Below, one piece after another: positions 37,335-46,059 of a stretch of DNA of 46,059 nucleotides. The stretch covers positions 1 to 46,059 of IMG/VR virus record IMGVR_UViG_3300043540_000318; one strand, 5' to 3'. A program made the translations under genes and the position numbers. Each line of letters begins with the position of its first letter. Positions within the stretch are counted from its first letter, which is position 1. A model generated the notes under the pieces. The model did no database searches and was not told where the DNA came from. It saw only the letters and a list, made by a program, of their open reading frames with translations. The stretch is from a virus.

Positions 37335-38013
37335 TGAATTGATACAGAAACTAAGGAAAGTTGCCGAATCATCGAAACTAGAACACAAATGGCTTTACAA
37401 GCTCACAGATTCTCAACTCGTTGATATATACAACTTGATACGTAGCGGAAAGTTGCTCGTTGAGATACCGGATACAGTGGTGGATAACTGGGGCATCGAT
37501 GTTGATATATCAAAGCAACAGATGGTATCAGACCTTGCAAACTTCAAGCTGAAGGCGCTCGACGATGTTGCGCTTGCAGTTGCACAGCAACGCGCCGGCG
37601 ATCCACGCGCGGGCGAGATCGCCAGTCGTCTCAACAAACTGAGTACCAAGGTTGATGCAATGGGGAGGCTTGGCTGGCTCATCGATCTGCAAACAGAGCG
37701 TGTCCAGTCGCTCACTGAATCCAAGGACTCTCGAACCATCCATCATGCATCAGAAGCGGTTCGTGAGCTCGGCCTACTCCTTGAAAAATACATCCGGCTC
37801 GAATCTGAGGTAGAATCGGGAAAGATCACCATGCGAACATCAGTCGCTGGTTCAATACTAGATGGTTTGCAGGAAGAAGGGAGGCTCATATCAGAAGCGG
37901 CAACAAAACTCCTTACAATGACAAAAGAGATCACCATTGAACAACCTCAATTGACATGCGACCTGCCTGAAGTCTCGCACAAGAGGTTAGAGGTTATCAA
38001 TGAAAAATCATAG
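37327..38013 (+). CDS. Probable terminase small subunit
   Basis: 228 residues from ATG 37327. The sequence is alpha-helical with a long coiled-coil-like middle (AIHH... ELGLLLEKYIRLESEVESGK) and an N-terminal part (LEHKWLYKLTDSQLVDIYNLIR) that could be a DNA-binding helix set. It precedes the large terminase with a 14-nt overlap, the standard order. No diagnostic motif; the call rests on position and fold type. Confidence 0.55.
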   Translation: MSDELIQKLRKVAESSKLEHKWLYKLTDSQLVDIYNLIRSGKLLVEIPDTVVDNWGIDVDISKQQMVSDLANFKLKALDDVALAVAQQRAGDPRAGEIASRLNKLSTKVDAMGRLGWLIDLQTERVQSLTESKDSRTIHHASEAVRELGLLLEKYIRLESEVESGKITMRTSVAGSILDGLQEEGRLISEAATKLLTMTKEITIEQPQLTCDLPEVSHKRLEVINEKS

Positions 38014-40003
38014 CAAGATCAAGCTTGACCATGCAATGGAGGTATTACTCGACGTCAGCAAGGGGCTGAATGCAAACGAGCGCATCCTCTTGGAGTCGTT
38101 AATCCTTGCGTGCAATCCTACTGAGGAAGATGGTCAGCTTGTGATCGATGCAAATCTCTTCTCAACATTTTGCAGGAATTATATCGATGCAGTCACCTCA
38201 AACGACCCTAATCTCCTCTTCAATGCAAAAGGGTATAAGGTTAAACCAGTCGATGTTGAGGAGTTCTTAGAATCAGAAGCCTACATGAATCAAAAGGGGC
38301 ACGTTCGCCCTGTTATCAAATATGAGCTTGATAGGCTTTTCAGCAATCGCGATAAATTCGTCGAAGTTGTCCTCTCCGGCGGCATCGGAATTGGGAAATC
38401 ATATTTCGCAGAGATGGCGGTTGCGTATATGGTTTATCTCAATTCATGCCTCATAAATCCACAGTCTGAGTATGACCTTGCTCCTGGGAGCAGCATTTAC
38501 TTTATTCTGCAATCTGTATCCCTCACCACCGCAAGGCGCGTCCTCTTCTCGCAGATGCTCGCAAGGATGGAACAGACGATCTACTTCACAAAAGTCTTCC
38601 CGTTTGATAAGAAGGTGAAATCAGAGTTGCGGTTCCCAAACCATATCTGTATCACACCAATCTCATCCTCAGAGATGTCAGCAATCGGTCTCAATATCTT
38701 CGGCGGCGTACTCTCCGAGGCGAACTTCCTCCAAGTGGTGGAAAGCAGCAAGCAGCTCAAAGGGAATGAAGCAGGCGGCATCTTCGATCAAGCAGAACGA
38801 AACTACAACACCGTCATGCAACGTATGAGGAGCCGTTTTGATAAAATGGGCAAACTCCCAGGCATGATGATACTCGACTCAGCGTCACATTACCCTGGGG
38901 ATTTCCTGAGCAGGAAGATCAAGGAGGCGGAAACCGACCCCACGATCTTTGTCATGAAATACGCACAGTGGGAGGCGCTCCCCAAAGACCGACTTAGCAG
39001 AGAGACGTTCCTTGTCGAAGTTGGAAACGAGGAGCGCGAATCAAGGATACTTCCAAAGCGTGAAATGGCGCACCCAGATGCAGAAGTGATCGAAGTCCCA
39101 ATGAACTACTTCAGAGACTTCCAGCGCAACTGTGAATCGGCGTTACGAGATTTCGCAGGCATCACAATAGGCACAGAAGGGGCTTTCATAAAGGATCGCG
39201 CTGCAGTTGTGGAGGCAGCCAACAAACACTCATTGCTCTTCAGCGACCTACAACTCTTCAAAAAGGATGAGATTATCATCGATAATGAACTCGACTTACA
39301 CATGCCTCGATATGACGACCTCATATGTCATGAATATCTCGATGATGTCTCATTTAATAAAGATGCAGAGTTTGCGCTTCATGCAGACCTCGGGCTATCA
39401 AAAGATGCAGTAGGATTAGTGATTGGTCATATCATTGACTACGTCAGTCTCCCATCATCAACATTCTACAGCGATCGAATTGGAGAATTCGTAGAACTGC
39501 AAGACCTGGTAGCGCCAGTAATTTGTCTTGACGGCATCCTTAGAATCATCCCACCTCATGGCGGAGAGGTTAGCCAAGAACTCACAAGAGGATTAATCAT
39601 ATACCTCTCACAGCTCGTAAACCTAAAGTTCGGCACCTTCGATCGATACGGCTCAGCAATATTCATCCAAGGGCTCAGAAAGCTCAGGGTAAGGAGCGGA
39701 TTAGTCTCCGTGGTGACAACCACTGTACCGTACAACGAACTTAAGGCTGCATACATAGAGCGAAGAATAATGCATCCACGACATGCACACTATATGGATG
39801 AGATTGTCGGACTGCAATATCTGCCAAAGAGGAATATGATTGATCACCTTCCTACCAAAACAAAGGATATTGCTGATGCGGCTGCTGCTGTTACACACAT
39901 TCTTACCCACAAATTAGCAAAAATACATCAGCATTCGAAGAAAGAGCAGAGCGACCAGCGTAAAACAATCATTAATAAACGTATTAGATTTAGAAGAAAA
40001 TAA
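38000..40003 (+). CDS. Terminase large subunit
   Basis: 667 residues. ATPase: Walker A SGGIGIGKS (126-134), a Walker B-like strand IFGGVLSEANF and a coupling motif LDSASHYPG. Nuclease (RNase H-like): HADLGLSKDAVGLVIGH, FDRYGSA, then KDIADAAAAVTH with the final acidic residue. This motor packages DNA into the prohead through the portal and cuts the concatemer. It is the last gene of the operon, on the opposite strand from the capsid genes, which is unusual. Confidence 0.88.
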   Translation: MKNHSKIKLDHAMEVLLDVSKGLNANERILLESLILACNPTEEDGQLVIDANLFSTFCRNYIDAVTSNDPNLLFNAKGYKVKPVDVEEFLESEAYMNQKGHVRPVIKYELDRLFSNRDKFVEVVLSGGIGIGKSYFAEMAVAYMVYLNSCLINPQSEYDLAPGSSIYFILQSVSLTTARRVLFSQMLARMEQTIYFTKVFPFDKKVKSELRFPNHICITPISSSEMSAIGLNIFGGVLSEANFLQVVESSKQLKGNEAGGIFDQAERNYNTVMQRMRSRFDKMGKLPGMMILDSASHYPGDFLSRKIKEAETDPTIFVMKYAQWEALPKDRLSRETFLVEVGNEERESRILPKREMAHPDAEVIEVPMNYFRDFQRNCESALRDFAGITIGTEGAFIKDRAAVVEAANKHSLLFSDLQLFKKDEIIIDNELDLHMPRYDDLICHEYLDDVSFNKDAEFALHADLGLSKDAVGLVIGHIIDYVSLPSSTFYSDRIGEFVELQDLVAPVICLDGILRIIPPHGGEVSQELTRGLIIYLSQLVNLKFGTFDRYGSAIFIQGLRKLRVRSGLVSVVTTTVPYNELKAAYIERRIMHPRHAHYMDEIVGLQYLPKRNMIDHLPTKTKDIADAAAAVTHILTHKLAKIHQHSKKEQSDQRKTIINKRIRFRRK

Positions 40004-40127: not shown

Positions 40128-40271
40128 ACCCCCGAATATTTCTTGTAATTATATCAATTATTTATAAATACTAACGATACCAACTACTTATAAACGCCAA
40201 AATATTGCTCTCTATCTATAGGGGTTTAAGTTGGCCGGCGGCGCGCTCCAGCGCTTTATGATTTGTGGGTC

Positions 40272-40300
40272 TTGACTCCGAGACCGCGGTATGCTAAGCT
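40272..40300 (+). promoter_or_regulatory. Promoter of the accessory region
   Basis: TTGACT at 40272-40277, 17 bp, TAAGCT at 40295-40300. The only promoter-like pair between the terL terminator and the first accessory gene. The ~200-nt leader behind it is structured: a long-range GC-rich stem (about 40307-40316 with 40391-40402) and the hairpins at 40409 and 40444. Confidence 0.5.
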
Positions 40301-40408
40301 ATACCTATACGCGCGAGGGGGGCGGGCGCACGGATACTACTATGCCTGTGCTGTCCCGAGCGTAAGTAGCTGTAATCACGCTTCTTTCGCCGCGCGGTAT
40401 CACATATA

Positions 40409-40433
40409 GCATATACATCAACCGTGTATATGC
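40409..40433 (+). promoter_or_regulatory. Leader hairpin GCATATACA/TGTATATGC
   Basis: A perfect 9-bp stem with a 7-nt loop in the leader of the accessory operon, just before a second, longer hairpin. Confidence 0.45.
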
Positions 40434-40443
40434 GCATCAAATA

Positions 40444-40491
40444 CTTCAAGCTTTACATCAGCATCGCATCGACTTAAAGTAAAGCTTGAAG
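40444..40491 (+). promoter_or_regulatory. Leader hairpin immediately before the RBS
   Basis: A perfect 13-bp stem CTTCAAGCTTTAC/GTAAAGCTTGAAG with a 22-nt loop that contains CATCAGCATCGCATCG, a sequence related to repeats further right. It ends 2 nt before the GGAGGG of the next gene, so it could control ribosome access. Confidence 0.55.
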
Positions 40492-40504
40492 GATGGAGGG
40501 CATC

Positions 40505-40975
40505 ATGTCGAACATGAGCCTTAAGTGGAGTGGCCAGACCTTAGCACTTGTGAGTGCAAAAGGTCGAGTGCTACTTGAAGGTATGGTTATGCTCACGCAT
40601 GATCATACTAGGTTTACGGCAATTGTTCGGGTTGCCGGTGGTACATCCGAACAATATTTTAAGTTAATCCGACCGCATAGCGCTGATTCCGCACTATGCG
40701 GTTCAGCGTTCGGAAGCGATTACATGCAGCGGCCAATGAGTCGCTGCCACAATGGGGTTGCAATAATGGGGTGGCCGGTCGAGGAAGTAGTGCGCGGCCG
40801 CACCAAGTATTCACTCTTAAAAACAGCGTTAAAGCGCTGTTTTTACGAAGGAAAAGTCTTTTCAAGTTATAGGGTGGCTCATTGGTTCCTAAGTGAGCTA
40901 CTCTGCAACGGTATAGGGAAAGCAGCAAGATTACAGGGACTTGCGCGTGCTTTCCAAAAGGAGCTTGAACAATGA
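40505..40975 (+). CDS. Unknown protein encoded by a hairpin-dense gene
   Basis: 156 residues from ATG 40505 (GGAGGG 5 nt upstream; an ATG at 40493 overlaps the RBS). The sequence looks protein-like (LKWSGQTLALVSAKGRVLLEG, RVAHWFLSELL) but no family is recognised. The nucleotide sequence is filled with consecutive inverted repeats, at 40542-40573, 40581-40608, 40622-40655, 40671-40703, 40726-40747, 40790-40803, 40818-40845, 40871-40904 and 40917-40955, several using G-U pairs. The DNA may therefore be under RNA-structure selection as well as, or instead of, coding selection. Its stop overlaps the next start (ATGA). Confidence 0.5.
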   Translation: MSNMSLKWSGQTLALVSAKGRVLLEGMVMLTHDHTRFTAIVRVAGGTSEQYFKLIRPHSADSALCGSAFGSDYMQRPMSRCHNGVAIMGWPVEEVVRGRTKYSLLKTALKRCFYEGKVFSSYRVAHWFLSELLCNGIGKAARLQGLARAFQKELEQ

Positions 40976-41193
40976 AGGAGCAGACCATGAGGAGGGTTGT
41001 GCTCAGGATAGCTGAGCACAACGAAAACAGAGTGTTTGTTGAGTACGTGAACGGTAAAGGCGAGTACAGCCGCCGCACCGTTCAAATTACAGGTCACAAT
41101 GATTCCCAATTTTGGGGATATTGTGAACTGAGACAAGACGAGAGAGTGTTTAGGTTCGACCGGTTAGTGTTTGCCGGTCAACCAAAACACTGA
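40972..41193 (+). CDS. Small WYL-like single-domain protein
   Basis: 73 residues, AAGGAG 8 nt upstream. The pattern VFVEYVNGKGEYSRRTVQI ... FWGYCELRQDERVFRFDRL resembles the SH3-like core of WYL domains ('I-x-Y ... R-x-V-x-P ... W-x-L-x-A-x-C-x-x-R-x-x-x-R-x-F-R-x-D-R'). A free-standing domain without an HTH is unusual; such ligand-sensing domains regulate defence systems. The gene also holds perfect hairpins (40996-41022, 41050-41082, 41094-41126, 41158-41179). Confidence 0.6.
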   Translation: MKEQTMRRVVLRIAEHNENRVFVEYVNGKGEYSRRTVQITGHNDSQFWGYCELRQDERVFRFDRLVFAGQPKH

Positions 41194-41202
41194 GGGGTTA
41201 AG

Positions 41203-41955
41203 GGGGGGCTCCAACAACTGCAGCCAAGTTGCTAATTTGACTGTAGTTGTTGGGGGAAAGAAAATAAAGTGGGTTGCGGTCAGTGGACTCACCTGCATAA
41301 AAAGCTACCCTTGCTGGTAACTCCCTGATGCAAAGTCCGACCGCAACGTCCAGCCCACCCGCAGAAGCGGGGCGACGCCAAGAGTACAGAGATGTTGAGG
41401 CGCGGGTGATGGTGGAAGGGGGCGGTGATCCTCAGGGGGGGAAGTACTGAGGATGCGTCACACCGCCCCGTCGCAACCCCTGGAACCCCACAGGGACACA
41501 CCACCTAGGTGCAGACACTCCAAAAGGGAGTGGAGCTCGCGATATGCAGCGACCGTCGGGATGACGGACGTGGGAGTCGTGGCAATGTCTGGAGCCACGG
41601 CAAGGCAAAAAGGCGGGTTACATGCACCGAAACCGGAAATCCCAGACAGGGGGTTGACGTCATCCCTAAGCTCCAATGAGGACAACGGGAAGATGAGCCG
41701 CCGCGACATAACGGGAAGTGAAAGTGAATCGTAAGTCAGGAGTCGCGGGGCGGTACTAAGCAAGGAGCAAGGGGATGACGTCCGACCTGCCCGCGATCTG
41801 CGAGGAGACTCGATCGCGTAATGATCCCCGCCCCTCGTGCCAACAACGACGACGGGCGACATGGGACCACTGATGTCAAGTTGGCGTGGAGACATCCTGG
41901 TTGCGGTCGAAAGGCAACGTTGCCAGCCAGACCAGATCGTGGGCATCCTCCTAAA
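41203..41955 (+). ncRNA. Candidate large structured non-coding RNA (~750 nt)
   Basis: A GC-rich stretch without a believable gene but with many stable helices. At 41211-41253 lies a 13-bp stem with one G-U. At 41273-41347 an arm carries nested stems GTTGCGGTC/GACCGCAAC, GGACT/AGTCC, TGCAT/ATGCA and TACC/GGTA. CCCGC/GCGGG with loop AGAA is at 41358-41371, and 41419-41469 has a 9-bp stem over a 7-bp stem. Hairpins follow at 41516-41532, 41553-41567 and 41578-41599. At 41792-41818 a stem is capped by a GAGA (GNRA) loop. GCCAAC/GTTGGC (41839-41885) encloses GACAT/ATGTC. GACGTCATCCC (41656-41666) and GGGATGACGTC (41772-41782) make an 11-bp long-range helix that crosses the 41747/41834 stem, a possible pseudoknot. 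Size, complexity and phage context recall GOLLD and ROOL RNAs; identity is not established. No own promoter or terminator is seen, so it may be processed from the operon transcript. Confidence 0.55.
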
Positions 41956-42005
41956 CAATAGACCTGAGTAGAAGGGATTGCTAACATGGAAAGGAGGTGA
42001 TAGCG

Positions 42006-42140
42006 GTGCTCACAGGTGAGGCTTGGACCGACCTGTGGGAGGACCTCGGAGCCATCGGCTTCGACGAGGCGTTCGACGATGATGACGCCTCCGAAGAGCC
42101 CGAGGGCTTCGAGGGCTTCGACCTCGACCTGCCTCTGTAA
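42006..42140 (+). CDS. 44-residue extremely acidic protein
   Basis: Start GTG 42006 with a full-consensus AAAGGAGGTGA ending 5 nt upstream. The product (MLTGEAWTDLWEDLGAIGFD..., ending EGFEGFDLDLPL) has 16 Asp/Glu and no Lys, Arg or His. Such composition occurs in DNA-mimic inhibitors of restriction or CRISPR enzymes and in small transcription modulators. It is immediately upstream of the AcrIII-1 gene. CCTCCT at 41947-41952, in the 3' part of the structured RNA, can pair with its AGGAGG. Function is inferred only from composition and context. Confidence 0.6.
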   Translation: MLTGEAWTDLWEDLGAIGFDEAFDDDDASEEPEGFEGFDLDLPL

Positions 42141-42161
42141 TGGGGGCGGGTTGAGGTTGAG

Positions 42162-42311
42162 GTGATCCGCGTCCCGAAGCGCGGCCATGACACACTCGCA
42201 TGGGTGGAACCGAGTGCAAACACGAATCAAAAAAGAAACGGAGGAGTTAAGAATGTTAATTATCAATGCAATCAGTGTAAACATGCTGCCCAAAGAAGGG
42301 GCGGCACTTAA
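42162..42311 (+). CDS. Possible 49-residue ORF overlapping the AcrIII-1 start
   Basis: GTG 42162 with GAGG 5 nt upstream opens a frame (IRVPKRGHDTLAWVEP..., with a CNQC pair) that runs 59 nt into the AcrIII-1 gene in another frame. The first 17 residues look protein-like, the rest less so. It may be a leader ORF coupling translation to the anti-CRISPR gene, or chance. Confidence 0.25.
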   Translation: MIRVPKRGHDTLAWVEPSANTNQKRNGGVKNVNYQCNQCKHAAQRRGGT

Positions 42312-42573
42312 GGTCCGACCGGTCTCCCTGGAGCAAGCCAGGGAAATACTGGAAGACGGGTTCGAATCAGCCATAGGTCACACCGAGACCGCGAATGTGG
42401 TCGGTGGGATGCTGGGCATGTCAGTACCCACGAACAGAGTCACGGTGCAACTGGGCTTCGGAGACGAGGCTCTGGTGGCACAGTATATAGGTCAGAGGCT
42501 GCCCGAAGGGGCAACCTCGCTGCCGGAAGGTGCAGAGATAAGGTTCTTCTACCTCACGGTGGAAGAACTCTAA
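42253..42573 (+). CDS. acrIII-1: AcrIII-1 family ring nuclease (DUF1874), anti-type III CRISPR
   Basis: 106 residues from ATG 42253 (GGAGGAG 6 nt upstream). The sequence follows the DUF1874 pattern closely: LIINAISVNML at the start, ESAIGHTETANVVGGML with the catalytic-type His43, NRVTVQLGFGDEALVAQ and YIGQRLPEG. In SIRV1 gp29 the corresponding elements are FSINML, SIGHDST and ISQRLEEG. The family cleaves cyclic tetra-adenylate, the second messenger made by type III CRISPR complexes, and so shuts off the ancillary nucleases. It is placed in the accessory operon after the acidic small protein. The leader hairpin of the next gene begins four bases after its stop. Confidence 0.9.
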   Translation: MLIINAISVNMLPKEGAALKVRPVSLEQAREILEDGFESAIGHTETANVVGGMLGMSVPTNRVTVQLGFGDEALVAQYIGQRLPEGATSLPEGAEIRFFYLTVEEL

Positions 42574-42577
42574 GACC

Positions 42578-42613
42578 TCCTCCTGGGCATGAGGTTAAAC
42601 TGCCCAGAAAGGA
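42578..42613 (+). promoter_or_regulatory. SD-sequestering leader hairpin, copy 1
   Basis: TCCT, C, CTGGGCA, loop TGAGGTTAAAC, TGCCCAG, AA, AGGA. The 7-bp stem is perfect and the outer TCCT/AGGA pairing covers the Shine-Dalgarno of the gene starting at 42621. The loop framework TGAG-N2-TAAAC is shared by all three copies. Confidence 0.8.
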
Positions 42614-42620
42614 AAGAACG

Positions 42621-42908
42621 ATGGCTGAAGAACGAAGTGGTATCGAGAGGGTAGTGAAGGTAAAACCATTGAGCATGTTGAACGAGAAACAGGCTGCATG
42701 GCTAGAAAGGTTCAAAGACTGGGACGAGGTTGATGAGTACTTCTTCAACCTCGTCGGAGATGGTGACTCCGCAATCCGCTTCTACGACAGAGTCGTGGAA
42801 GTAATGGAGGAATTGGAGAAGAAGTATGGAGGCAGGGTTCGGACATTCCCCGAGGACCCGCCATGGGTCTTCAGGTTGTATGTCCAGAAAGGAGGTAAGA
42901 GACAATGA
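42621..42908 (+). CDS. Paralog family P1, copy a (unknown)
   Basis: 95 residues. Shares the segments GIERVVKVKP, LNEKQAAWLERFKDWDEVDEYF, AIRFYDRVVEVME and FPEDPPWVFRLYVQKGGK with the gene at 44253-44531, so the two are clear paralogs. Predicted small alpha/beta protein ending in a basic strand. No known family. Both copies have the conserved SD-sequestering hairpin immediately upstream (AGGA 7 nt before the ATG), suggesting common translational control. Position after the anti-CRISPR gene suggests a host-takeover or counter-defence role, which is inference. Confidence 0.75.
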   Translation: MAEERSGIERVVKVKPLSMLNEKQAAWLERFKDWDEVDEYFFNLVGDGDSAIRFYDRVVEVMEELEKKYGGRVRTFPEDPPWVFRLYVQKGGKRQ

Positions 42909-43060
42909 TCGGAGTGTGGAAGAACGAGAAGGTGTGGGTGCCTGAGGCTTCGGTGAAGTCGAGGGAGTTCATGAGAGTCAACAGGGTCAACGGTGAAAAA
43001 CGAATCACCGTTGTGAAAGTGGTGGTTAAACCACCAAGAAAGGAGGTGGAGAAAGCGTAG
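42905..43060 (+). CDS. 51-residue basic protein
   Basis: ATG 42905 overlaps the P1a stop (ATGA); AAGGAGG lies 9 nt upstream. The product begins MIGVWKNEKVWVPEAS and is rich in Lys, Arg and Val (ITVVKVVVKPPRKEVEK), about 12 net positive charges less acidic residues. The region GTTAACGG-like codons form hairpins (AACGGTG/CACCGTT). Probably a small nucleic-acid-binding or inhibitor protein; no family is recognised. Absent from the second P1 copy. Confidence 0.6.
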   Translation: MIGVWKNEKVWVPEASVKSREFMRVNRVNGEKRITVVKVVVKPPRKEVEKA

Positions 43061-43065
43061 GGTCA

Positions 43066-43109
43066 GGCGGGGCATCGCCCCGCCAAAAATCACCTGAAAG
43101 GAGGTGATT
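43066..43109 (+). promoter_or_regulatory. GC-rich hairpin plus SD-sequestering hairpin
   Basis: GGCGGGGC/GCCCCGCC with loop ATC (43066-43084) is followed by AAAAAT and a second stem AATCACCT/AGGTGATT (43088-43109, loop GAAAGG) that encloses a perfect AGGAGGTGA ribosome site. The first is not a plus-strand terminator because no T-run follows. Confidence 0.65.
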
Positions 43110-43118
43110 CAAATGTTC

Positions 43119-43282
43119 CCACAATGGTCAGTTCTGTTGTGGGAGAGTATCCAGGGTCCCAGATGTAGGGGAGTCTGGACTCATTCGGAAAATGAGGAGG
43201 GACTCCCTAACCTCGGTGCAGGACTTGCATCGGGGGTGTTATCAACTCCGCATCGACATCAGCATCAGCATCGATGTTGGTG
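43119..43282 (+). repeat. Structured repeat element X, copy A
   Basis: Hairpins CCACAA/TTGTGG (43119-43142) and GGGTCCCAGA/TCTGGACTC (43154-43182, one bulged C) are followed by CATT/AATG and by a repeat ending CAGCATCGATGTTGGTG (to 43282). It aligns in the same order with copy B at 43675-43866, while the reading frames of the two copies are not conserved. A short ORF (ATG 43113) begins here but is probably a leader or nothing. From 43061 to 43377 no other gene is seen. Confidence 0.5.
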
Positions 43283-43329
43283 TTGATCTTGTATCAGCAT
43301 CGACATCAGCGCTGATGGCGCTGGACCCA

Positions 43330-43373
43330 CTGTCTGCAACATCGACAGCGGGTAAAATCGTATCGGAGGTTGT
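43330..43373 (+). promoter_or_regulatory. Second-type leader hairpin before P2a
   Basis: CTGTC/GACAG stem (43330-43348), then GGTAAAATCGTATCGGAGGT carrying the SD of the gene at 43378. The two other copies (43911 and 44561) have the tighter form stem, loop TTTCG, stem, then GGTAAAAAATCGGAGGT. Confidence 0.5.
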
Positions 43374-43377
43374 TGAA

Positions 43378-43617
43378 ATGACATTTGTAGAACTGCAAAC
43401 GAGGAGGGTGAGGGCGGCCAGGAAGGTGTTGGACGCGTTGTATCGCGACATCACGGAGTTCCGTATCATCCATTTCCCCGACGGGGATGTGGATGATGAT
43501 CGGGCCCCGATCCCAGAGGTCGTGGGATCGGAGGAAATCGCTGAGCTGATCGAACAGATCAGTCCACTGATCGGAGAGTTGCAGCATGAGGTTGACAACC
43601 TCATCGACTGCAGGTAG
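43378..43617 (+). CDS. Paralog family P2, copy a (unknown)
   Basis: 79 residues from ATG 43378 (GGAGG 7-8 nt upstream). Shares TF-E-Q-R-VR--RK-L--LYRDITE, PIP-VVGSEEIAELIEQISPL and a final DNL-DCR with the gene at 43951. The N-terminus is basic, the rest acidic; two long helices are likely. No family is recognised. The stop is followed directly by an SD-sequestering hairpin. Confidence 0.72.
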   Translation: MTFVELQTRRVRAARKVLDALYRDITEFRIIHFPDGDVDDDRAPIPEVVGSEEIAELIEQISPLIGELQHEVDNLIDCR

Positions 43618-43621
43618 AATT

Positions 43622-43657
43622 TCCTCCTGGGCATGAGGCTAAACTGCCCAGAAAGGA
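43622..43657 (+). promoter_or_regulatory. SD-sequestering leader hairpin, copy 2
   Basis: TCCT, C, CTGGGCA, loop TGAGGCTAAAC, TGCCCAG, AA, AGGA, GGG. An ATG at 43662 follows 4 nt after, opening an 89-codon frame through element X copy B. Because that frame is not conserved with copy A, the downstream target is uncertain. Confidence 0.75.
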
Positions 43658-43674
43658 GGGTATGAAGGTGAGCT

Positions 43675-43866
43675 CACAACGATGGCTGACGTTGTGGGTG
43701 AGTCAGAAGACCAGATGTACATGGGTGCGTCTGGTCTTCATCGGAAATCTGGATGGGGTGAGTCTAGCCTCGGTCATGAATTTGATTGGGGATAGCCTAA
43801 CTCTCGAACAGTCCAAAAAGATGGGCATCAGCAACAGCGGAAACAGCATCAGCATCGATGTTGGTG
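43675..43866 (+). repeat. Structured repeat element X, copy B
   Basis: CACAAC/GTTGTG (43675-43696), a perfect 10-bp stem GAAGACCAGA/TCTGGTCTTC (43706-43739), CATC/GATG, and the 23-nt repeat that ends CAGCATCGATGTTGGTG at 43866, identical to the one in copy A. The stems differ from copy A by paired changes (GGUC/GACC-type exchanges), which argues for RNA rather than protein conservation. From 43618 to 43950 no convincing gene is seen. Confidence 0.5.
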
Positions 43867-43910
43867 GTGATTGCACATCAGCATCAACATCGGTGTTGAT
43901 CATACATCGA

Positions 43911-43942
43911 ACCAGCGTTTCGCGCTGGTAAAAAATCGGAGG
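43911..43942 (+). promoter_or_regulatory. Second-type leader hairpin before P2b
   Basis: ACCAGCG, loop TTTCG, CGCTGGT, then AAAAAATCGGAGGT with the SD. Compared with the copy at 44561 (GCCGGCG/CGCCGGT) the fourth base pair changes A-U to G-C, a compensatory exchange, with loop and downstream segment identical. Confidence 0.65.
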
Positions 43943-43950
43943 TGATGGCG

Positions 43951-44205
43951 ATGAGAATGACATTCGAGGAATGGCAGGCAAGAAAGGTGAGGAAGATGAG
44001 GAAACTGTTGGAGTCGCTTTATCGCGACATAACTGAGCTACACATCACGTATTTTGAAGACGGCAGGTGGGAGCTCGATGACGAAGGTCGTCATCCTATC
44101 CCAGATATTGTTGGTTCCGAGGAGATTGCTGGGCTGGTCGAACAGATTAGCCCATTGTTGGGCAAACTCCAGAAAGCAACCGATAACCTCCAGGACTGCC
44201 GATAA
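43951..44205 (+). CDS. Paralog family P2, copy b (unknown)
   Basis: 84 residues from ATG 43951 (GGAGG 8 nt upstream); GTG/ATG codons at 43942-43947 overlap the SD. MTFEEWQARKVRKMRK, LYRDITELHITYFEDG, HPIPDIVGSEEIAGLVEQISPL and DNLQDCR match copy a with a small insertion (GRWELDDEGRH). A loosely similar element (VVDDEGREWPL) occurs in the gene at 45723. Unknown function. Confidence 0.72.
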   Translation: MRMTFEEWQARKVRKMRKLLESLYRDITELHITYFEDGRWELDDEGRHPIPDIVGSEEIAGLVEQISPLLGKLQKATDNLQDCR

Positions 44206-44209
44206 CACA

Positions 44210-44245
44210 TTCTCCTAGGCATGAGAATAAACTGCCTAGAAAGGA
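44210..44245 (+). promoter_or_regulatory. SD-sequestering leader hairpin, copy 3
   Basis: TTCT, C, CTAGGCA, loop TGAGAATAAAC, TGCCTAG, AA, AGGA. Relative to copies 1 and 2 one G-C pair of the stem became A-U (CTAGGCA/TGCCTAG), and the outer UUCU still pairs with AGGA through a G-U. AGGA lies 7 nt before the ATG at 44253. Confidence 0.8.
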
Positions 44246-44252
44246 AATGAAA

Positions 44253-44531
44253 ATGGAAAGAGAAGGAATTGAAAGAGTGGTGAAGGTTAGACCGTGGAGC
44301 ACACTGAACGATCGTCAGGCTGCATGGTTGAAGCAGTTCAAGGATTGGGACGAGGTTGATGAGTTTTTCTTCAACCTCACCGGAAACTACGAGGCAGCCA
44401 TTCGCTTCTACGACAGGGTCGTGGAAGTGATGGAGGGTCTCGGAAAGACATACGAAGGGGCGGTGAAGACATTCCCCGATGATCCGCCGTGGACCTTCAG
44501 GGTTTACGTCAGAAAGGGCGGGAAAAGGTAG
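44253..44531 (+). CDS. Paralog family P1, copy b (unknown)
   Basis: 92 residues from ATG 44253, the start equivalent to P1a and 7 nt after AGGA; an ATG at 44247 is too close to the SD. About two thirds of residues match P1a, including the invariant-looking WDEVDEFFFNL, FYDRVVEVMEGL and DDPPWTFRVYV. DNA hairpins inside the gene (GAGGTTGA/TCAACCTC; TTCTACGAC/GTCGTGGAA) are shared with P1a. Unknown function. Confidence 0.75.
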   Translation: MEREGIERVVKVRPWSTLNDRQAAWLKQFKDWDEVDEFFFNLTGNYEAAIRFYDRVVEVMEGLGKTYEGAVKTFPDDPPWTFRVYVRKGGKR

Positions 44532-44560
44532 TATGAGTTTAAGGGGGGGATTCACATCAA

Positions 44561-44590
44561 GCCGGCGTTTCGCGCCGGTAAAAAATCGGA
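44561..44590 (+). promoter_or_regulatory. Second-type leader hairpin before the 368-residue gene
   Basis: GCCGGCG, loop TTTCG, CGCCGGT, then AAAAAATCGGAGG with the SD of the gene at 44600. Same loop and spacer as the copy at 43911, with paired differences in the stem. Confidence 0.65.
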
Positions 44591-44599
44591 GGTAGAAAG

Positions 44600-45706
44600 A
44601 TGAAGTTGGTAGAAGTTATAGAGTTGGTTGCAAAAGAGTTTGGGTATAATGGTAAAGTCCAGAAGTTCGTGGATGAGCTTCTCAAACATCAGGAGGAGTT
44701 GAATCTGGAGTGGTCGAAGGATATCCCCACCCAGGTTGCATATTCGAAGGGTGGGAAGAGGATCAGGACAAAACTCGGACGGTTTGCAGTCCGAGTAATC
44801 GGTGTAGAGATTCCCGATGCATTCGTTGCATCGTGCATCGGGGAAGAGTTCGGTACTGATGAGTATGTCACTCTCCTGAAAGGCTATGAAATAGTAGAGG
44901 CCTATCAGGAGGGATTTGCTGCTGAGTCGTGCATGACTGGCGATGACTCGGATAAAGTCGAGTTGTATGCGCTCAATCCAAACAAGGTAAGGCTGATAAA
45001 GTTCGTGGCAGGTCCGGTATCTGCAAGGGCGCTGATCTGGGGAACAGATCAGGGAGTGCTAGTGGTTGATAGAGTGTATCCCAGCGATAACCGCACTGCG
45101 GTGGAGTGCATACATCGATGGGCAAAGAAGAAGGGGTATGTCTATCGGGTCAATCAGGACCCAGGGACGGCGGGATTTAGCGAAGGATATGCTCCAACGT
45201 ACACAGTGACGTTGCGTCACAATCACGTGTATCCGTACATGGATACGTTCATGTATGGATATCGGGTGATTGTGAAGGGGAAGGAGATGCTCCGAGTGAG
45301 CAATCAGACATGTGACCTCACAGAGTTTGAAATGCAGACCACTCGTGGGTATGCATATCAGACTAAGAACAATCGTTGCGTGTTATGCGGGAGCATGTAT
45401 GTGGATAATGAATCGTATATATGGTTAAATAATGAGGAAAGAGTTTGTTCGGAATGCATGCATAGAGTTCACAAGTGCTCCATTTGTGGCAACATCTTCA
45501 TCATGCCGGAGAAGGGAAGGAATGTAGAGATATGTGACTTCTGCATGAGGACCAGATATGTGGAATGCTGCATGTGTGGCGACCTGGTTCCACGTGCAGA
45601 GTATATATATCATAATGGCGCTCATTTCTGTGATGAGTGCTTTGGGGATATAGTCATGAAGAGAAAGTGGAAGTGTTACGAGTTGGAGTTCAACGCTAGT
45701 ATCTAA
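44600..45706 (+). CDS. Large zinc-ribbon protein, conserved phage unknown
   Basis: 368 residues from ATG 44600 (GGAGG 7 nt upstream). Residues about 110-200 (AAESCMTG, LYALNPNKVRLIKF, ARALIWGTDQGVLVVDRVYPSD) follow a pattern seen in uncharacterised proteins of large phages. The C-terminal third contains three pairs of CxxC knuckles (CVLCG/CSEC, CSICG/CDFC, CCMCGD/CDEC), probably three zinc ribbons or treble-clef units. Hairpin-forming DNA continues here (ACTCGGAC/GTCCGAGT, CCCGATGCA/TGCATCGGG, CTGATCTG/CAGATCAG). A nucleic-acid- or protein-binding role is likely; no catalytic motif is seen. Confidence 0.72.
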   Translation: MKLVEVIELVAKEFGYNGKVQKFVDELLKHQEELNLEWSKDIPTQVAYSKGGKRIRTKLGRFAVRVIGVEIPDAFVASCIGEEFGTDEYVTLLKGYEIVEAYQEGFAAESCMTGDDSDKVELYALNPNKVRLIKFVAGPVSARALIWGTDQGVLVVDRVYPSDNRTAVECIHRWAKKKGYVYRVNQDPGTAGFSEGYAPTYTVTLRHNHVYPYMDTFMYGYRVIVKGKEMLRVSNQTCDLTEFEMQTTRGYAYQTKNNRCVLCGSMYVDNESYIWLNNEERVCSECMHRVHKCSICGNIFIMPEKGRNVEICDFCMRTRYVECCMCGDLVPRAEYIYHNGAHFCDECFGDIVMKRKWKCYELEFNASI

Positions 45707-45722
45707 AGAAAGGAGAATTGAA

Positions 45723-45992
45723 ATGACTGATGAAAGGATCAAACAGGAGATGGAAGACTTCTACGAAGTCCTTGGTGATGCACTGCTAGTCCTAGTCAAA
45801 GCTAGGGATCGGCTGTGCAACTTCGATATCGTCGTTGACGATGAAGGACGGGAATGGCCTCTGTACAATCTCGGTCCGAGGACTGACATCCCGAATGCAG
45901 CCGAAGCGCATAGGAGACTGGTAGAGGCAATCCGCTGGTTGTCGTGGGCGAATGAGCTGTTCCGTCCGTCGCATGACGGAATGTCTGAATAA
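45723..45992 (+). CDS. Small acidic helical protein, unknown
   Basis: 89 residues; AAAGGAG lies 7 nt before ATG 45723. Mostly helical (RIKQEMEDFYEVLGDALLVLV, EAHRRLVEAIRWLSWANELF) with a VVDDEGREWPLYNLG turn that recalls part of paralog P2b. Possibly a distant member of the P2 group. Function unknown. Confidence 0.6.
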   Translation: MTDERIKQEMEDFYEVLGDALLVLVKARDRLCNFDIVVDDEGREWPLYNLGPRTDIPNAAEAHRRLVEAIRWLSWANELFRPSHDGMSE

Positions 45993-46014
45993 CAATTAAG
46001 ATTCCACATGTAGT

Positions 46015-46051
46015 CGATGCTGATATCAATCCTGTATTGGTATCAGCATCG
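46015..46051 (+). terminator. Long hairpin at the right edge, possible terminator
   Basis: A 16-bp stem (CGATGCTGATATCAAT with ATTGGTATCAGCATCG, one G-U) with loop CCTGT, followed by TCGTTTAT. The ATCAGCATCG core also occurs in the repeats at 43263 and 43847. The T-run is poor, and the window ends before the element can be judged. Confidence 0.4.
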
Positions 46052-46059
46052 TCGTTTAT

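Follow-up and report, generated by a model that had tools for sequence, protein, structure and literature searches.

Among the large structured RNAs of bacteria and phages, phage-borne GOLLD often adjoins or overlaps tRNA genes, and OLE RNA neighbours the gene for an OapA-type membrane protein. RNA structure can also reside in coding sequence: RNA viruses show genome-scale ordered RNA structure, with pervasive sense-strand structure in coding sequence achieved by synonymous choice. On a much smaller scale, the leader of phage T4 gene 32 contains an H-type pseudoknot next to a phage gene. Here we analyze a gene-free stretch of ~0.8 kb in a single virus record from IMG/VR (46,059 bases), which is probably a fragment; this whole stretch of DNA is called the window below. 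An earlier note had proposed that the gene-free stretch may be a giant ornate RNA of the GOLLD/ROOL line or of a new class. We find that the stretch is non-coding and folds modestly above chance, and that the surrounding coding sequences do so strongly, through synonymous codon choice. The stretch is more plausibly one part of an operon transcript packed with hairpins than a giant RNA of its own.

Genome setting and coding content

The core genes of the window end with the terminase gene (38000-40003). After a gap of 0.48 kb that holds no genes, small genes on the same strand form an accessory operon (~40,400-46,059). The order is a 160-aa gene, a 73-aa WYL-like gene, the gene-free stretch, an acidic 47-aa gene, an AcrIII-1 gene, and several genes for paralogous small proteins (Table 1). 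Base composition shifts at ~40.2 kb, with a GC3 of 0.57 in the accessory part versus 0.45 in the core and a higher overall GC as well; given this shift, the contig may be chimeric. The stretch is GC-rich, as claimed earlier, but this character is common to the downstream module (51-57% over 42001-44000). Over their best segments, relatives of the terminase are 43-72% identical to it at the amino-acid level, and a related phage (record L002) encodes other small proteins 3′ of its terminase. The end of the L002 contig (15680-15966) consists of repeated GACCCAGGTCGACCCCGCGACCCTC units, possibly an assembly artefact.

The reported AcrIII-1 neighbour is supported by a Pfam scan, in which the gene matches the STIV B116-like family PF08960 (E 4.7e-15, 56 bits, cut-off 26); its best phage match is from Thermoanaerobacterium phage THSA-485A (43%). 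The AcrIII-1 family degrades cyclic tetra-adenylate, the signal used by type III CRISPR, a CRISPR type that is triggered by transcript recognition. The WYL-like call for the 73-aa gene is weak, lying under the Pfam cut-off but matching phrog_6785 with an E of 7e-7. No relatives of the 160-aa upstream protein were found. Further downstream, two pairs of small genes, 42621-42908/44247-44531 and 43378-43617/43951-44205, are 72% and ~60% identical, representing a gene set duplicated within the accessory module. The 368-aa protein (44600-45706) has a Cys-rich C-terminal half, and its distant relatives include proteins from Thermus phages, Cellulophaga phages, and huge uncultured phages. A leader hairpin is repeated at 43904-43943 and 44554-44593 (CCAGCGTTTCGCGCTGG / GCCGGCGTTTCGCGCCGGT), with a compensatory pair change between the copies, and both copies precede a GGAGGT ribosome-binding site.

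All six frames of the stretch have negative codon scores (-0.26 to -0.44), whereas neighbouring genes read in frame score about +0.02 to +0.14. Its three-base periodicity equals that of shuffles, although this test is imperfect here, as the adjacent 160- and 73-aa genes are also aperiodic despite normal in-frame codon scores. The single Shine-Dalgarno-preceded open reading frame (start 41775, 32 codons) is non-coding-like, with a score of -0.49. The scores and the periodicity thus bear out the earlier statement that no frame is protein-like, and no homologous protein was found across the stretch.

Table 1 Features of the accessory operon and of the gene-free stretch within it
Feature	Position	Strand	Basis or remark
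Two upstream genes (160 aa; 73 aa, WYL-like)	40493..41193	+	Coding sequence hairpin-saturated; 700-nt window z -12.95; synonymous shuffle z -7.2 and -6.2
Gene-free stretch between the 73-aa WYL-like and acidic 47-aa genes	41194..41996	+	Codon scores, periodicity, fold z
Strong hairpin, 15 + 6 bp, ~15 nt past the stop codon of the 73-aa gene	41209..41255	+	Three G-T and one A-C mismatch
Layered arm GTTGCGGTCAG/CCGACCGCAAC	41273..41347	+	Fold of 41263-41350
CCCGC-AGAA-GCGGG hairpin, loop not GNRA	41358..41371	+	Read from sequence
Stacked 9 + 8 bp stems (41419-41427/41461-41469 and 41428-41435/41447-41454)	41419..41469	+	
Long-range helix 41656-41666/41772-41782, 11 bp perfect, +5 bp past an internal loop	41656..41782	+	Nested in the MFE fold
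Long-range helix 41788-41800/41933-41945	41788..41945	+	Competes with the GAGA-loop hairpin at ~41793-41818
Acidic small gene, 47 aa (44 aa if GTG 42006 is the start)	41997..42140	+	
AcrIII-1 family gene (STIV B116-like, DUF1874)	42253..42573	+	Pfam PF08960
Predicted 26-nt pseudoknot, copy 1	42580..42605	+	6 nt past the AcrIII-1 stop codon
Remaining structured accessory module (95/94-aa paralogues, 141/87-aa paralogues, 368-aa gene, others), synonymous shuffle z -0.9 to -5.2	42621..45706	+	
Predicted 26-nt pseudoknot, copy 2	43624..43649	+	6 nt past a stop codon
Predicted 26-nt pseudoknot, copy 3	44212..44237	+	6 nt past a stop codon

Folding of the stretch and of its neighbours

The MFE of 41263-41960 is -281 kcal/mol (z -3.3), lower than that of all 60 dinucleotide shuffles, so the structure claimed for the stretch is better than expected for shuffled sequence. 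Folding of the minus strand is just as significant (z -4.5), and therefore fold energy does not resolve the strand. A strand-neutral count gives 5 strong helices in the stretch versus 2.0 expected, a number reached in 1 of 100 shuffles. In 150-nt windows over 41300-41970, folding is near chance (z ~0), unlike in the flanking coding windows (-3 to -7), which suggests that the stretch may be a different kind of sequence. When folded alike, a control tRNA cluster of similar length from a related phage reaches z -6.7, which is what dense real RNA looks like by the fold test.

The helices named earlier are present, including the layered arm, the CCCGC-AGAA-GCGGG hairpin, the GAGA hairpin, and the perfect 11-bp pair. 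The segment 41203-41262 folds with z -4.7, and 41263-41350 with z -3.9 on the plus strand and -6.8 on the minus strand. Two loops had been described as GNRA-type: the GAGA loop at 41805-41808, within CGAG-GAGA-CTCG, is one, but AGAA is not a GNRA tetraloop. The pseudoknot thought to follow from the 11-bp helix is not required, as this helix is nested in the MFE fold, despite a rival partner for one of its strands (41551-41566 with 41658-41673). Nearly all pairs in the helices of the stretch are Watson-Crick, and the mismatches in its imperfect helices (two counted) are too few to show a strand bias. The A-rich unpaired bases show a loop composition no better than that of shuffles.

The coding sequences on both sides fold far more strongly. 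The 700-nt coding windows 40491-41190, 42181-42880, and 44601-45300 have z values of -12.95, -6.2, and -5.6, versus +0.3 to -0.75 for four core windows of the same length. We also permuted the synonymous codons of each gene, keeping protein and codon usage. In this synonymous shuffle, the accessory genes score, in order, -7.2, -6.2, -2.9, -2.7, -2.9, -0.9, -4.9, -2.4, -4.7, -5.2, and -0.8, the 89-aa and 51-aa genes showing little excess structure, and the core genes mostly lie between about +0.8 and -2.0, with the exception of the terminase (-3.2). Several accessory genes score equally strongly in antisense, and therefore the synonymous shuffle alone does not fix the strand. The mismatches are more informative: in a strand-neutral helix search, the imperfect helices of the flanking module contain G-T and A-C mismatches at 37:12, and since an inverted repeat at the DNA level predicts about equal numbers, sense RNA is favoured as the selected molecule. 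The upstream genes hold 13 helices versus 2.4 expected. The module at 42-45 kb has a mean of -2.81, and no 3-kb mean at 55 other loci falls below -2.42; the normalisation for those loci was slightly different and more conservative, so the two values are not strictly comparable. One related phage contig (107 kb) was scanned, and no comparable hairpin-saturated stretch was seen. These results show that the fold signal of the stretch is not specific, the flanking coding DNA being far more structured. Because neighbouring protein genes fold far harder, fold energy weighs little in favour of a separate RNA.

RNA families, homologues and a predicted 26-nt pseudoknot

A cmscan of the whole window against Rfam 15 at gathering score found no family. 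For 41100-42100, hits at E<=10 were at chance level, the best-noted being malK-III (19.8 bits, cut-off 50) with others weaker, and no GOLLD, ROOL, OLE, or intron model was among them. The proposed membership in the GOLLD/ROOL line is thus not borne out, with no Rfam match, no tRNA in the window, and no homologue. GOLLD and ROOL were each rejected on their Rfam covariance models, unmatched at gathering score and at E<=10, and for GOLLD the 46 kb, itself a fragment, also contain no tRNA. OLE was rejected on its covariance model at the same two thresholds; the ten neighbouring proteins scanned gave 0 OapA-type Pfam matches. Group I and II introns were rejected on the Rfam intron models and by eye, neither a GUGYG start nor a domain V being seen.

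In homologue searches, blastn of the stretch against 50,697 phage and 72,556 plasmid records returned only chance matches of 22-46 nt, and the DNA of 40200-42200 had no match in five terminase-related virus records. Homologues were also sought by way of the neighbouring genes in viral_contigs: the 160-aa, AcrIII-1, and 95/94-aa queries found no relatives there, the terminase query six, and the 368-aa gene two distant ones. A long ORF-poor gap in the relative G001, the only one examined there, proved to be a tRNA cluster. A 16-mer probe for an A-rich loop matched viral_contigs 16 times, never past ~20 nt, and these matches were judged to be chance.

The repeats of the operon led to a 26-nt element with the consensus N-UC-CU-R-GGCA-N-GA-N′-NN-UAAAC-UGCC-Y. 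It occurs in 47 IMG/VR stretches by exact scan, in at least 120 by a looser pattern, and in 81 cellular stretches (viral records are labelled L010-L166 and cellular ones L167-L246). Among the 132 distinct viral instances listed, the free pair N-N′ is G-C in 67, C-G in 54, A-T in 5, T-G in 3, T-A in 2, and non-pairing in 1, and column frequencies among these matches predict ~63 pairings by chance. The base 5′ of CC, left free by the looser pattern, is U in 132 of 132. As N-N′ pairing is far above chance and this U is invariant, the alignment supports an H-type pseudoknot, predicted to pair NUC with GAN′ and RGGCA with UGCCY, with strong covariation in the first stem.

In 67 of the 135 viral instances listed, the stop codon of a frame of at least 60 codons lies 5-8 nt upstream (38 at exactly 6), compared with 1.6% of random positions. 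Copies often lie 3-5 nt 5′ of a tRNA gene, as in several phages, or shortly before a ribosome-binding site. In Omnitrophota, Desulfobacterota, some Firmicutes, Desulfotomaculia, and others, a conserved ORF of ~20-30 codons ends before the element or within it. This tiny ORF carries the motif ...RYMLRPVAHCKEGC... / ...YMLRPVAHCKEGC..., often extended to ...SWA or SWARR (e.g., L168, L184, L225, and L228), and its frame usually closes at a TGA or TAA that the element itself contains. The gene that comes next encodes, in many Omnitrophota, a shared protein of ~130-146 aa. Rfam searches of the window copy and of six other source contigs gave no match to the element, and a search of open-access papers by sequence and description found nothing relevant. 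A readthrough role was rejected, as reading on past the stop would add no long extension at any of the three window copies and the distance from the stop codon differs by one or two bases between copies, so that frame is not kept. The element may be a 3′-end stabiliser or a ribosome-termination element.

Readings of the stretch and comparison with known systems

With moderate confidence, we read the stretch as an untranslated structured segment within the polycistronic transcript of the accessory operon, most of which, including its coding sequence, has excess RNA structure. This reading is based on the close same-strand flanking genes, the strong folding of the flanks against about zero in the core, synonymous-shuffle z values of -2.4 to -7.2 in most accessory genes, the G-T excess, and the helix counts in the stretch and the upstream genes. 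It is also consistent with the five terminase-related contigs lacking a DNA match and the scanned one lacking comparable hairpin saturation. Against it stand the equal folding of both strands within the stretch, the few imperfect helices, the near-chance local folding, the low values of the 89- and 51-aa genes, the terminase value, and the strong antisense scores of several accessory genes. The stretch would be transcribed with its neighbours on the plus strand, and its helices would act in cis, keeping the accessory mRNA folded; this may slow ribonucleases, space cistrons, or make the transcript hard to target by RNA-guided defences, for instance type III CRISPR. The enzyme encoded by the adjacent AcrIII-1 gene should counteract type III CRISPR signalling, and because that system is triggered by transcripts, a folded transcript could plausibly partner it. 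As a role, slower decay is no less likely than CRISPR evasion.

Alternatively, and more tentatively, the stretch may be a large structured non-coding RNA in its own right, belonging to a class with no described relatives. It would be transcribed as part of the operon or processed out of it, and would act in trans or form an RNA-only particle, as may be the case for GOLLD and ROOL. Its length, lack of coding signal, significant mid-range helices of 11-16 bp, GNRA-capped hairpin, and advantage over every shuffle agree with this possibility, but the lack of an Rfam match or homologue, the near-chance local folding beside more structured mRNA, and the much stronger z of the control tRNA cluster argue against it. 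It is unlikely that the stretch is a decayed or recently acquired sequence (a dead gene or insertion) without function, whose helices are left over from a structured module. The stretch does lack an open frame and relatives and folds more weakly than its neighbours, but long perfect or near-perfect helices persist beyond the expected number, a dead stretch of 0.8 kb is unusual in a compact phage genome, and no parent gene was identified. We also find it quite improbable that the operon transcript, folded almost end to end, is an evolved RNA-level shield against ribonucleases and type III CRISPR; such a shield would comprise the 0.8-kb non-coding segment and the stop-codon pseudoknots, protecting the anti-CRISPR and other accessory mRNAs until their proteins are made. 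A DNA-level element, such as an inverted-repeat-rich origin, recombination, or packaging site, would fit the almost pure Watson-Crick helices and equal strands of the stretch, but is very improbable, given that the surrounding helices prefer G-U on the plus strand and are built by synonymous choice in genes, and that the stretch is GC-rich. A coding region missed through frameshift or non-standard decoding is scarcely credible and largely refuted by the codon scores and periodicity, even though the minus strand has an open frame of 166 codons.

Should the excess structure prove real and under selection, a DNA phage would be moulding spacers and synonymous sites in one operon related to defence so that its transcript is folded, with the core genes left alone, which would make a link between mRNA structure and escape from RNA-targeting defence or decay testable. 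The case also calls for caution in discovering non-coding RNAs, as a spacer can stand out from its shuffles in fold energy and yet be less folded than its coding neighbours. The covarying 26-nt pseudoknot, found in phages and several bacterial phyla without an Rfam match among the copies searched, may outweigh the original finding.

Compared with known systems, the stretch resembles GOLLD and ROOL (Rfam; cryo-EM study PMC12286853) in being long, multi-helix, non-coding, and phage-borne, but differs in having no covariance-model match, tRNA neighbour, or homologues and in folding no more strongly than adjacent mRNAs. OLE, raiA, HEARO, and other large bacterial RNAs in Rfam 15 are alike only in length and GC-rich multi-helix character, with no match at E<=10. 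The genome-scale structure of RNA viruses is similar in pervading coding sequence on the sense strand by way of synonymous choice, but the structure here belongs to one accessory module of a DNA phage and not to its core genes. The 26-nt element, like the T4 gene 32 pseudoknot, appears to be H-type and lies by phage genes; its sequence is different, and it is placed ~6 nt past stop codons and ahead of tRNAs or many genes that are unrelated to one another.
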